The notes under the pieces are model-generated. The model saw only the letters and a list, made by a program, of their open reading frames with translations, was not told the origin of the DNA and ran no database searches. From a virus: a DNA stretch of 40,727 nucleotides. Numbering within the stretch: the stretch's first letter is position 1; every line of letters starts with the position of its first letter. The stretch lies in IMG/VR virus record IMGVR_UViG_3300000115_000064, positions 1 to 40,727 of that record, one strand, 5' to 3'. Shown one piece after another: positions 17,804-21,928 of this stretch. A program made the position numbers and the translations under genes.

Positions 17804-18355
17804 ATGGCTTCAATACTAGATCCATTAAAAGACAGGCAAGGCGGAATTAAGAAGTCTGCTGATTGGTACAGAAAAAATGTACAATCAATGGCAGACACAG
17901 TTACCGCTAGAAAGTTAATGAATAGTGGTAAATTGATAGGTAAACCAAGCACAGGTCGTTTAAATATGTTTTTTTACGATCCTAAAACAAAGGCTAAACT
18001 ACCTTACTACGACAGATTTCCACTTGTATTACCACTAGAACCAATTAAGGGTGGTTTTTTAGGTATGAACTTTCACTACTTACCATATCTTTTAAGATTT
18101 AGATTGTTAGAAAGATTACAAAAGTTTTCAGATGGTGGTTTTAAATCATCAACTAAAATGAGTGTAAGTTATGATATTGTAAAAGGTATTAATCTAGTAA
18201 AACCAACACTTAAAAAATATTTGTATGGCTATGTTAGGTCAAGTTTTTTAAGAATAGATTTTGATGAGTCTGCTTTAGCAGCTTATCTACCTGTACAAAG
18301 ATTTGTTAAAGCAGGTACAAGTAAAGTATGGGCAGACAGTAGAGGTATGATTTAA
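17804..18355 (+). CDS. Conserved T4-like virion-associated protein, unnamed
   Basis: This 183-residue protein has a central block NMFFYDPKTKAKLPYYDRFP, LVLPLEPIKGGFLGMNFHYL and PYLLRFRLLERLQKF that I recognise from an unnamed protein encoded beside tail genes in T4-like marine phages. The N-terminal part (residues 1-50) is basic and helical. The C-terminal AALAAYLPVQRFVKAGTSKV segment is hydrophobic. It is expressed from the late promoter at 17791 and joined to the tail-tube-type gene by a TAATGG junction, so a structural or assembly role is likely. No catalytic motif. Confidence 0.7.
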   Translation: MASILDPLKDRQGGIKKSADWYRKNVQSMADTVTARKLMNSGKLIGKPSTGRLNMFFYDPKTKAKLPYYDRFPLVLPLEPIKGGFLGMNFHYLPYLLRFRLLERLQKFSDGGFKSSTKMSVSYDIVKGINLVKPTLKKYLYGYVRSSFLRIDFDESALAAYLPVQRFVKAGTSKVWADSRGMI

Positions 18356-19338
18356 TGGCAATTTTAAGAGGCGGAAAAAGAATAGGCGGTTTTGATGTAA
18401 GGATTGGTATACCACGTGACCGATCTTTAGACAATGTACAAGGTGATAGTAGATTAAAACAAAGAGCAGGTGGTAATCCAGATTCTACAATGGGTAGAAT
18501 ACAAGCCTACGTAAACGAGGCAGAGGGTTTTGCTAGAAAAGCAAGATACTATATTGAATTTAATTTACCAAATGGTGTAGGTGAGAACTTATTTGGTACT
18601 TCCGATAATGACGCTACTTATTCTAGTGAGATTACAGATGAGACAAGAGGTTTTGCTTTATCAAAAGATTTAAGAGCAGTACAGTTGGCCAATGCTAGAC
18701 GAGTACAAGCATTTTGTTCAGCAGTAGATATGCCTAGTAGAGAGATAATAACAAAAGAAATTAAGCACAATGGCCCTACTAGAAAAATAGCTTATGACGC
18801 TCAGTTTGCTGACATAACAGCAACATTTTATACAGACAAATTTTTAAGAGAACGAAGTTATTTTGAACTATGGCAGAAAGCTGCTTATAGTAATACTACA
18901 TTTAATTTTAATTATTACAACGATTATGTATCTCCGGTAAACATATTACAATTAGGTAATTATGCTAGCCAAAACGAAAGAGATGACGTAACTTACGCTG
19001 TAAAATTATTTGATTGTTTCCCAAAAACTATTGGTGCTGTTTCGTATTCACACGATACAAACCAGGTACAAACGTTTACAGTAACGTTTTCATTTAGACA
19101 TTGGGTCAATTATTTCATTGATGAAGCAGATAATGTTTCATTGTTAGGTCAAAAAGAATTTAACGTACCAACAGTTAAATATGGTGGATTGTTTGGTGGT
19201 TTATTCAGTAAATTACCGCCTGAATTAAGAAGAGCAGGCCGTGATGTATTGAACGATATAAGAAGACGAGTACCAATAGGACCTATAACTGGTGGAAGAG
19301 CATTTCCACCATTTAGAATACCACCACTAAATATATAA
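18355..19338 (+). CDS. 54: Tail-tube-fold protein, gp54-like baseplate tube initiator
   Basis: This 327-residue protein contains the T4 gp19/gp54-type tube fold. RRVQAFCSAVDMPSREI is the first domain motif. QFADITATFYTDKFLRERSY with FELWQKAAYS follows, and later comes YAVKLFDCFPKTIGAVSY then QTFTVTFSFRHW. The size is that of T4 gp54 (320) rather than gp19 (163), so the baseplate cap that starts tube growth is preferred. A glycine/proline/arginine-rich C-terminal tail (from about residue 285, RRRVPIGPITGGRAFPPF) is extra. Next to gp48 and gp53 functions it would sit at the top of the baseplate. Confidence 0.75.
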   Translation: MAILRGGKRIGGFDVRIGIPRDRSLDNVQGDSRLKQRAGGNPDSTMGRIQAYVNEAEGFARKARYYIEFNLPNGVGENLFGTSDNDATYSSEITDETRGFALSKDLRAVQLANARRVQAFCSAVDMPSREIITKEIKHNGPTRKIAYDAQFADITATFYTDKFLRERSYFELWQKAAYSNTTFNFNYYNDYVSPVNILQLGNYASQNERDDVTYAVKLFDCFPKTIGAVSYSHDTNQVQTFTVTFSFRHWVNYFIDEADNVSLLGQKEFNVPTVKYGGLFGGLFSKLPPELRRAGRDVLNDIRRRVPIGPITGGRAFPPFRIPPLNI

Positions 19339-19359
19339 ATTATATAATAAGGAGATATA

Positions 19360-20094
19360 ATGGCATTACCAAAAATTGAAACGCCGACATATGAACTGAC
19401 TTTACCATCACAAGATATTAAAGTTAAGTATAGACCGTTTCTAGTAAAAGAAGAAAAGATACTTTTGATGGCAATGGAATCTCAAAAAGCAGATGAGATT
19501 TTTCAAGCAACAAAACAAATAGTAGCGTCTTGTACATTTAATAGTTTAAAAGTAGAAGAATTACCAACATTTGATTTAGAATACATCTTTTTACAGATAA
19601 GAGCTAAATCAGTAGGTGAGATAACTAAATTTAAAGTGTTATGTCCAGATGATAAAAAAACTTATGCTGATGTTGAAGTTGATTTAACAAAAGTTAATGT
19701 TGAAGTTGACGATAAGCATACAAACAAATTAGTAGTTGATGAAAAAAGAAACTTAGGTGTTGTACTTAAATATCCAACAATGAATGTATTAAAATCAGGC
19801 ACTATGGAAAACCCTACGACAGAGCAAATATTTGATGTTCTAACGGAGTGTGTTGACCATATATACGAGGGCGATAAAATATATCCAGCGAAAGATAGTA
19901 CACAACAAGAGATAAAAGAATTTTTTGAAGATTTATCACAAGATTCTTTTGTTAAAATTAAGTCATTTTTTGATACTATGCCTCGTTTAAGATACGAGGT
20001 TGAGGTGACAAATCCAGTTACCAATGTGAAAAGTAAAGTAGTTTTATCAGGACTAAATGATTTTTTCGAATCAGCCTCGCCCACAACAGCCTAG
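19360..20094 (+). CDS. 26: gp26-like baseplate hub/assembly protein (frameshift donor)
   Basis: This 244-residue protein has the T4 gp26-type start: PTYELTLPSQDIKVKYRPFL followed by VKEEKILLMAMESQ, and VASCTFNSLKVEELPTFDLE with YIFLQIRAKSVGE. T4 gp26 (208 residues) is needed for hub assembly. AAGGAG precedes the ATG. At codons 234-236 (GAT TTT TTC) the gene carries a T TTT TTC heptamer (20061-20067); ribosomes slipping -1 there would leave out the last 8 residues and read on into the gp51-like extension. The gene lies upstream of the tape measure gene, like tail assembly chaperones of other phages. Confidence 0.85.
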   Translation: MALPKIETPTYELTLPSQDIKVKYRPFLVKEEKILLMAMESQKADEIFQATKQIVASCTFNSLKVEELPTFDLEYIFLQIRAKSVGEITKFKVLCPDDKKTYADVEVDLTKVNVEVDDKHTNKLVVDEKRNLGVVLKYPTMNVLKSGTMENPTTEQIFDVLTECVDHIYEGDKIYPAKDSTQQEIKEFFEDLSQDSFVKIKSFFDTMPRLRYEVEVTNPVTNVKSKVVLSGLNDFFESASPTTA

Positions 20095-20108
20095 AGGCAT
20101 ACTTCGAA
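20061..20108 (+). promoter_or_regulatory. Programmed -1 frameshift signal: slippery heptamer plus stem-loop
   Basis: T TTT TTC (20061-20067) in the gp26 frame can re-pair as TTT TTT C. Six bases later GCCTC (20074-20078) pairs with GAGGC (20094-20098), and outside it TTCGAA (20065-20070) can pair with TTCGAA (20103-20108). The gp26 stop (20092-20094) lies at the base of the loop. Confidence 0.75.
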
Positions 20109-20252
20109 ACTAACTTTGCTCTGATACAACATCATAAATATAGCTTAAGTGAATTAGAGAATTTAATGCCTTGGGAACGAGACGTATATGTGTCTCTGTT
20201 GTCAAATTGGATTAAACAAGAAAATGAGAGAAAACGAGAGAGGAACAAATAA
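20061..20252 (+). CDS. 51: gp51-like extension, read by -1 frameshift from gene 26
   Basis: The -1 frame is open from just after a TGA (20058-20060) to TAA at 20250-20252, about 63 codons. It encodes SLEAYFETNFALIQHHKYSL and SELENLMPWERDVYVSLLSN, then a charged tail ending ERKRERNK. This is the type of short protein annotated near gp26 in T4-like marine phages (gp51, hub assembly catalyst). There is no ATG, GTG or TTG between the upstream stop and the conserved part; the first ATG (20166) would cut it in half. With the slippery site at its very start, I infer it is made only as a gp26 fusion. The stop overlaps the next ATG (TAATG). Confidence 0.7.
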   Translation, partial: FFRISLAHNSLEAYFETNFALIQHHKYSLSELENLMPWERDVYVSLLSNWIKQENERKRERNK

Positions 20253-20545
20253 TGTTTGAAGAAACTACAACGAAAACAGTAAATACAATTAAATGGGTAT
20301 GGTGGTTTTTAAAAGAAGAATTACCACAATTTTTATCTAATTGGAGAACTGTACCTAGAATTATGATGGTCTTATATGGCCTAGTATTCTATAACACTAT
20401 GAATTGGTTTATGGCTTTAGACGCTCCTAACAATGCTCAAGCAGGTTTTGTATCTGTTGTTGTTGGTGCTGGCGCTGCTTGGTTTGGATTATATGTAAAT
20501 GGTAAATCATCAAAAATTTCATCATCAAAAGAACCAAGAAGATAA
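20252..20545 (+). CDS. Small membrane protein, holin candidate
   Basis: This 97-residue protein has a tryptophan-rich amphipathic N-terminus (KWVWWFLKEELPQFLSNWRT) and two hydrophobic segments (RIMMVLYGLVFYNTMNWFMA and AGFVSVVVGAGAAWFGLYV). It ends in a short lysine/serine/arginine C-terminus. Two or three membrane passes and a charged tail are the usual holin layout, and the cell-wall enzyme at 12938 lacks its own signal peptide. Placement between the gp51-like and tape measure genes is unusual for a holin, so a tail-associated membrane protein is the alternative. Confidence 0.55.
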   Translation: MFEETTTKTVNTIKWVWWFLKEELPQFLSNWRTVPRIMMVLYGLVFYNTMNWFMALDAPNNAQAGFVSVVVGAGAAWFGLYVNGKSSKISSSKEPRR

Positions 20546-20548
20546 TAA

Positions 20549-21928
20549 ATGGCCGTATTAGAATCTGATATAAAAGCTCTGTTTAAGACCATAACTAGCG
20601 AGACTATGAAAACAGTCAGCGCAGGTCAAAAAACTGTTATATCTCCTACAACAGTTAGAAATCTAGCAAAAGAGATAACTGAACAGGCAGAGAGTGGTAG
20701 TATTTTTAAGTTTGAAGAAGCACTTAAAAAAACAGAGACTATAATTGATAAATTAGGTATTAATTTAGATGATTTTAATAAAGGCCTATCAGATAGACTT
20801 AAACAACTTGGCGAACAAAAAGTTAAGGCAGAGGCCGAAGTACAAGAGTTAAGACAAAGTAATATAGCGGCTGAAGTAAAAACTATCAAAGAAGGCAAAG
20901 AGTTTAGAATAGAAACTAATATACTTACTAGAAAAGAAATTAAAGAACGAACTTCTTTACTAAACAATCAAATAAAACAGACGGACAAAAGAGAAAAAGA
21001 AATCATCAAACAAAGAGAAAAACTTTTAAAGAAAGATGAACTTACAGTAGCAGACAAAGAAAAAATAATTGCTGATGAAAAAGAAATCACACAACGAAGA
21101 GCTGCTATAGCTACAGAATCAGAAACGTTAGGCATAACGGCTGATACAGGTGGTGATAGATTAGAACTGCCACCAATGTTGGCAGGTTTTGTTGACGCTT
21201 TAATGACACCATTTAACGCCATTGGTGAGGCAGGTATGATGTTAAAAGATACTGTTGTGGGTATAGGCGAGACATTTATGTTTTTAGGTAAGGGTGCTTT
21301 GAAAGTTGTAGTAAAAGCATTTAAAGCTTTATCATTTATATTAAAACCAATACCTATAGCAATAGGTTTGGCCATAGGTGGTGCTATATTTTTAATTTAC
21401 AAATTTAGAGACAGCATTAGTGATTTTGTTGACGCTGTAAAATCAATACCTGGTAAAATCAAAAACTTTTTTAGTGAAGCATTTAGAATGGTCAAAAACT
21501 TTTTTATTGACTCCCTTAATAATATAATAGAGTTAATTAATAAAGTCAATCCATTTAAGAATATAGAACTTTTAGAAAGAGACGAGGGTCCTGAAGCACT
21601 TGTAAATGACTCTGCTACCAAACAGAAACAAGAAATGCAGTCCATCATAAGAGAGGCCGAAGAAGATCAAAAACTAAAAGAAAAGATACTAAAAGATTTA
21701 GAGGTGCCAGAATCACCTACGTTTACTGTGCCTAATTTAAATATTGAACAAAGAACAAAAACAAATGCTGAATTTGCTAGTGCTGGTACAACAGGTAACA
21801 CAGTAATAAACAATGTAATTGGTGGAAGTCAACAAAACGTGGCTAGCAACTCTGCTAGTATTAATACTTTAAGTGGTAGTAAAAACATAGACGACACAAT
21901 GATTAATTTAGGAACTGTGCCTGTTTAA
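20549..21928 (+). CDS. 29: Tail tape measure protein (gp29-like)
   Basis: This 459-residue protein (T4 gp29 is 590) is organised as a tape measure. The N-terminal 200 residues are strongly helical and coiled-coil (KEIKERTSLLNNQIKQTDKR and following). Residues about 215-290 are hydrophobic (MLAGFVDALMTPFNAIGEAG, then ALSFILKPIPIAIGLAIGGA). An amphipathic region with FFSEAFRMVKNFFIDSLNNI and a low-complexity end with NTVINNVIGGSQQNVAS follow. It fixes tail length and is later ejected. Location right after the frameshifted gene pair matches the chaperone-tape order of other tailed phages. Its stop overlaps the convergent gene 4 stop. Confidence 0.8.
   Translation: MAVLESDIKALFKTITSETMKTVSAGQKTVISPTTVRNLAKEITEQAESGSIFKFEEALKKTETIIDKLGINLDDFNKGLSDRLKQLGEQKVKAEAEVQELRQSNIAAEVKTIKEGKEFRIETNILTRKEIKERTSLLNNQIKQTDKREKEIIKQREKLLKKDELTVADKEKIIADEKEITQRRAAIATESETLGITADTGGDRLELPPMLAGFVDALMTPFNAIGEAGMMLKDTVVGIGETFMFLGKGALKVVVKAFKALSFILKPIPIAIGLAIGGAIFLIYKFRDSISDFVDAVKSIPGKIKNFFSEAFRMVKNFFIDSLNNIIELINKVNPFKNIELLERDEGPEALVNDSATKQKQEMQSIIREAEEDQKLKEKILKDLEVPESPTFTVPNLNIEQRTKTNAEFASAGTTGNTVINNVIGGSQQNVASNSASINTLSGSKNIDDTMINLGTVPV

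Follow-up and report, generated by a model that had tools for sequence, protein, structure and literature searches.

A gp26 gene of a marine T4-like phage predicted to encode two tail assembly chaperone forms by a programmed -1 frameshift

Our analysis of the window, that is, the whole 40,727-base virus record studied here, from a marine T4-like phage of an uncultivated lineage, indicates that gene 26 very probably encodes a tail assembly chaperone and is read in two ways, with a -1 slip on a slippery heptamer giving a predicted long form. On comparative grounds, a programmed -1 frameshift is strongly favoured, given the in-phase heptamer, the unconserved start of the -1 frame, the coding constraint on this frame, the constraint on a stem within the clade and an SD-like element. 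In the proposed mechanism, most ribosomes would halt at the TAG at 20092-20094 and yield a 244-aa short form (TAC-N), and a minority would slip by -1 on T TTT TTC (20061-20067) to give a long form (TAC-NC) of 297 aa, with the gp51 segment at its end. A stem 6 nt past the heptamer would aid the slip, which we infer together with its efficiency, and the upstream SD-like AGGA would probably do so as well. In lambda G/GT, the short form coats the tape measure and the long form recruits the tube protein; by analogy, coating of the tape measure protein would fall here to the short form and recruitment of the tail tube protein to the C-terminal segment of the long form, with both forms in a fixed ratio. 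In T4, the two forms correspond to the separate paralogous genes 26 and 51.

The gp26 gene, its -1 frame and its neighbours

The features of the region are the following.

19350-19354, plus strand: AGGAG, SD sequence of gp26
19360-20094, plus strand: gp26, predicted short form (TAC-N), 244 aa; residues 8-237 match positions 1-219 of the PF12322 (T4_baseplate) profile, its full length (E 3.8e-61); phrog_150, E 6e-68
20049-20052, plus strand: AGGA, SD-like element 8 nt before the heptamer, a probable stimulator judging from SD-like enrichment
20058-20060, plus strand: TGA, stop closing the -1 frame just 5' of the heptamer
20061-20067, plus strand: slippery heptamer T TTT TTC in the -1 phase (codons GAT TTT TTC)
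20061-20252, plus strand: -1 ORF, gp51 C-terminal segment, 63 codons, ended by TAA at 20250-20252; phrog_634, E 1.1e-28
20074-20078, plus strand: GCCTC, 5' arm of the predicted stem, based on codon usage, pair counts and synonymous recoding
20092-20094, plus strand: TAG, frame-0 stop of the short form
20094-20098, plus strand: GAGGC, 3' arm of the predicted stem, based on codon usage and a change of the outer pair
20252-20545: 97-aa ORF (phrog_10198) with hydrophobic stretches, its start overlapping the gp51 stop (TAATG)
20549-21928, plus strand: tape-measure protein candidate, 459 aa, based on a partial match to phrog_4197 (tape measure, E 2.6e-4) and on its position

The heptamer can be read directly from the sequence, in the right phase for a -1 slip as the initial annotation had stated, and the -1 frame opens exactly at the heptamer, after the TGA. 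The earliest ATG, GTG or TTG in this frame is an ATG at codon 35, within the conserved NLMPWER motif, so that the gp51-like segment has no usable start in the window. Joining gp26 to the -1 ORF gives a predicted TAC-NC fusion of 297 aa (236 aa in frame 0 and 61 aa in frame -1), for which the predicted slip-junction peptide is VVLSGLNDFFR and the frame-0 counterpart is VVLSGLNDFFESASPTTA. The -1 ORF also matches positions 231-278 of phrog_150, the end of this family, suggesting that some members of the gp26 family hold the segment within one protein. Among named phages, the nearest gp26 is that of Pelagibacter phage Mosig, with 54% identity.

The gene for a tube-type protein (18355-19338) is followed by gp26/gp51 and then by the tape-measure candidate. 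This order of tube, gp26/gp51 and tape measure genes fits a tail assembly chaperone, but the frameshift gene does not lie immediately before the tape measure gene as the initial annotation had claimed, since the 97-aa ORF intervenes. Small ORFs between gp51 and the tape measure gene are also present in Mosig, HTVC008M, DLP6 and Rhizobium phages. Short and long forms with a common N-terminal domain, the long one arising by a -1 slip near the 3' end, would also fit such a chaperone at the level of the sequence. T4 gp26 and gp51 have been listed as hub assembly chaperones, gp51 being essential and not found in the particle (PMC3004832). AlphaFold2 gave good models for gp26 (pLDDT 86) and for a T4-like gp51 (pLDDT 87.5). 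When the gp26 model was compared with the PDB by Foldseek, the highest-probability match was the HK97 chaperone 2ob9, a weak match (probability 0.47, TM 0.51 by target, E 2.0) that is only a hint of a shared fold, and YqbN (3klu) was also listed, weakly (E 6.2). Profile searches of the PDB sequences with gp26 and gp51 did not find relatives, and a Pfam search with the gp51 alignment did not find a tail chaperone family.

Conservation of the heptamer, the -1 frame and the putative stimulators

For comparison of the junction across relatives, we gathered loci by searches of viral contigs and from annotated phage records; one further viral-contig search added two loci. A distant gp26 alignment had too little conserved to serve as a contig query, and a Vibrio gp26 query gave no match in viral or genome contigs. 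An in-phase run of six T residues (T6) is present at the same spot in 176 of the 180 loci, as T TTT TTC (161 loci), T TTT TTT (13), T TTT TTA (1) or T TTT TTG (1), and T TTT TTC occupies the site in 108 of 120 distinct sequences; because the loci are phylogenetically related, these counts are not independent events and were not converted to probabilities. Elsewhere in the same genes, in-phase T6 runs occur at only 24 of 27,805 positions. The slip site uses TTT TTC for Phe-Phe in 108/120 sequences, compared with 7/142 cases elsewhere, and the codon preceding TTT ends in T in all 120 distinct sequences. The in-phase heptamer is found in Pelagibacter, cyano-, Rhizobium, Stenotrophomonas, Vibrio and Aeromonas phages, and also in Aeh1, Ci1, VmeM-32, S13 and nt-1, with the frame-0 stop 0-27 nt beyond the T6 run. 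The heptamer signal is therefore real and strongly conserved, beyond chance. Note that HTVC008M has a T8 run (L002:4193-4200) directly followed by AA, which places a frame-0 stop immediately after the slip codons; at this locus, slippage by the polymerase is more plausible than it is in the window.

The -1 frame is coding and under purifying selection from the heptamer onward, with pN/pS of 0.41 over codons 2-9, 0.32 over codons 2-19 and 0.33 over codons 20-44, as compared with 1.1-2.3 for the other two frames. Its first ATG, GTG or TTG varies in position from codon 3 to codon 45 across the loci and is not conserved. The start sites of the free gp51 proteins in GenBank likewise vary between records and seem to have been picked by the annotators. 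In 7 of 78 non-redundant loci, the frame-0 stop and an ATG overlap (TAATG or TGATG), for example in Vibrio D484, Stenotrophomonas YB07, Caulobacter Cr30 and Rhizobium phages, suggesting that coupled re-initiation could supplement or replace slipping in these cases. The gp51 segment of Vibrio phage D524 (L094:3190-3390) lies in the -1 frame; stop and start overlap there as TAATG and a T6 run is absent, so that stop-start coupling apparently stands in place of slipping. In Ackermannviridae, the gp51 segment also follows gp26 in the -1 frame, unannotated in the records read (Klebsiella phage May, L091:3280-3465; Salmonella SS9, L098:3217-3410; L280-L295), but a T6 heptamer is lacking, as is any start codon upstream of the conserved part. 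At the junction, this family has ATT TTC ATT TAA TTT TTG, the conservation of which is overstated because the search pattern itself fixed much of the stretch.

The GCCTC/GAGGC stem, which begins six bases past the heptamer as initially noted, is under synonymous constraint in the clade of the window. In this clade, Leu is encoded by CTC in 29 of 31 loci (2% usage), AGC, TGC or GGC is used in 31/31 and GAG in 31/31 (27% usage); the clade thus keeps the predicted stem through rare synonymous codons. The outer pair is swapped between G-C and C-G among related clades. The predicted fold of the window was more stable than those of 199 of 200 synonymous recodings in which the protein was held fixed, and one recoding equalled or bettered it. 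By the same test, z was below -2 in 25 of 27 loci of the window's clade (mean -3.3) and in all 18 loci of the Synechococcus clade (mean -4.4), in which the stem is stronger and lies in a different register. Conservation of the stem in relatives, which the initial annotation had proposed as a check, therefore holds for these two clades but not for the Mosig-like clade (mean z -0.2) or for most outgroups, in which the synonymous-recoding test detected no stem. Dinucleotide shuffling over 60 nt gave z of -0.59, although synonymous recoding is the more apt test because it keeps the protein fixed. A search of 19000-21000 against Rfam gave no match. An outer TTCGAA/TTCGAA pairing (20065-20070 with 20103-20108), which had also been proposed, was rejected, since it overlaps the heptamer and is not conserved.

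Among the 78 non-redundant loci, 33 have an SD-like 4-mer 6-16 nt 5' of the heptamer, compared with 7% of background windows. A conserved Gly codon in this region is GGA or GGG instead of the usual GGT or GGC (GGR enrichment, Fisher p 5e-11, not corrected for relatedness). The upstream SD-like AGGA is thus a probable stimulator of the slip, judging from this enrichment.

Relation to gp26 and gp51 of T4

In T4, genes 26 and 51 adjoin on opposite strands and are divergently transcribed. Residues 1-201 of T4 gp51 (249 aa) comprise the full PF12322 (gp26-family) domain (E 3.9e-52), and its C-terminal part matches phrog_634; T4 gp26 matches PF12322 across its whole length. Comparison by hhalign of the -1 ORF family with residues 200-245 of T4-like gp51 gave E 1.3e-7, with the alignment starting from the slip-site Phe. 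T4 gp51, being a PF12322 domain followed by the same C-terminal segment, is therefore a one-frame fusion protein, and T4 gp26 is the short form. The proposal of the initial annotation that T4 gp26 and gp51 are the same pair in another form is borne out, and T4 has two genes for what the single-gene phages are predicted to make from one by frameshift. Gene 26 of T4 also has an annotated internal-start product, 26' (L085:2303-2590).

A phylogenetic tree built on the shared domain separated T4-type gp26 from T4-type gp51, each as one clade (support 100/100), and put the two together on one side of the single-gene phages with weak support (85/54), as predicted by one duplication in the T4 lineage. 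Straboviridae outside this lineage (Aeh1, AS-yj, Ci1, S13, VmeM-32 and nt-1) have a single gp26, the T6 run and a -1 gp51, which is unannotated in several of them. In Aeromonas phage Aeh1, an unannotated -1 ORF after T TTT TTC (L195:1650-1856) encodes gp51. Aeh1 has been listed as the sole genome without gp51, and the gp51 proteins of cyanophages and vibriophages have been described as short of about 200 N-terminal residues (PMC3037559). Both the "missing" gp51 of Aeh1 and these "truncated" proteins would be accounted for if the N-terminal part is gp26, joined by frameshift.

Alternative explanations, known systems and implications

The stop-start overlaps in 7 of 78 loci, the D524 junction and the free gp51 annotated in many GenBank records could be taken to mean that gp51 is a separate small protein with its own start, produced by termination-reinitiation at the end of gp26. 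We consider this improbable, since the first start in the window is inside a conserved motif and the first start wanders across the loci, the peptide that directly follows the heptamer (FFRIsL..sLEayfe) is constrained, and T4 gp51 is a natural fusion. Slippage of RNA polymerase, rather than of the ribosome, on the T run would leave a -1 event looking alike in the sequence, and T runs of 7-8 in some relatives, such as the T8 of HTVC008M, speak for it. Still less credence is given to this explanation, because most loci have exactly six T residues followed by C in the X XXY YYZ phase, and the SD-like element and the downstream stem are ribosomal features; a six-T run is also short for polymerase slippage. 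The idea that gp51 is a decaying remnant or a sequencing artefact, with a T run arising by chance in an AT-rich genome, might draw on the AT-rich sequence and on the cyanophage gp51 described without about 200 residues (PMC3037559), but is contradicted by the same layout in 176/180 loci from cultured and uncultured phages and by purifying selection on the -1 frame, and its probability is practically negligible. Programmed -1 frameshifting by the ribosome is thus the reading preferred here.

The window resembles lambda G/GT in gene order and logic, with a short and a frameshifted long chaperone before the tape measure gene, but lambda slips on G GGA AAG and has a larger extension of different sequence. 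P2 gpE/E+E' also has a -1 frameshift before the tape measure gene, with T TTT TTG, of the same slip class, at the annotated E/E' frameshift; judged by eye, the E' tail (FHWPPSELYPMSLTELITWREKA) looks similar to the gp51 motif, and the 80 E' relatives gathered for a profile were all identical and uninformative. The -1 cassette of E. coli dnaX, which yields a shorter product, consists of an SD-like element upstream, the heptamer A AAA AAG and a stem downstream. The layout in the window is the same, although the heptamer is T TTT TTC and the product would be longer.

The initial annotation knew of no description of such a gene in T4-like phages, but the T4-like tail assembly chaperones gp26 and gp51 were identified by Vladimirov, Gautam and Davidson (Virology 2022, 566:9-15), according to PMC10885494 and PMC12846349. 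As far as these citing papers show, the T4-like gp26/gp51 of that study belong to the same protein families, with a short and a long form sharing an N-terminal domain; T4 has two divergently transcribed paralogous genes, whereas the phage of the window has one gene with a predicted frameshift. A later citing paper credits Vladimirov et al. with poly-T slippery sites in T4-like chaperone genes, and the PRFect paper (PMC10885494) cites them for some T4-like phages that, instead of frameshifting, have a longer fusion gene separate from the short one. One GenBank record already labels gp26 and gp51 'tape measure protein assembly chaperone'. The homology and the slip were thus largely anticipated by published work; the general scheme is already known, and the window is a well-supported further case. 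The literature searched describes neither the stems and the SD-like element nor the case of Aeh1 or of the pelagiphage-like clade, although the 2022 paper may contain them, and the clade-specific stimulators, Aeh1 and the uncultivated lineage may be new.

The present results explain why gp51 of marine T4-like phages seemed reduced to roughly one fifth of its length and why that of Aeh1 seemed absent. They argue that, in hundreds of genomes, the labels 'baseplate hub' for gp26 and 'hub assembly catalyst' for gp51 should be replaced by short and long tail assembly chaperone, respectively. A broader scheme, which we put forward tentatively and rate at somewhat below even chances, is that the slip site is ancient and nearly universal among the T4-like phages that have one gp26 gene, and the stimulators turn over; clades would hold the ratio with stems in different registers or with none, some adding stop-start coupling, Ackermannviridae would reach the -1 frame in another way, and the T4 lineage would have replaced slipping by duplication. 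If this is true, these phages would offer a natural series of alternative solutions for fixing one protein ratio.
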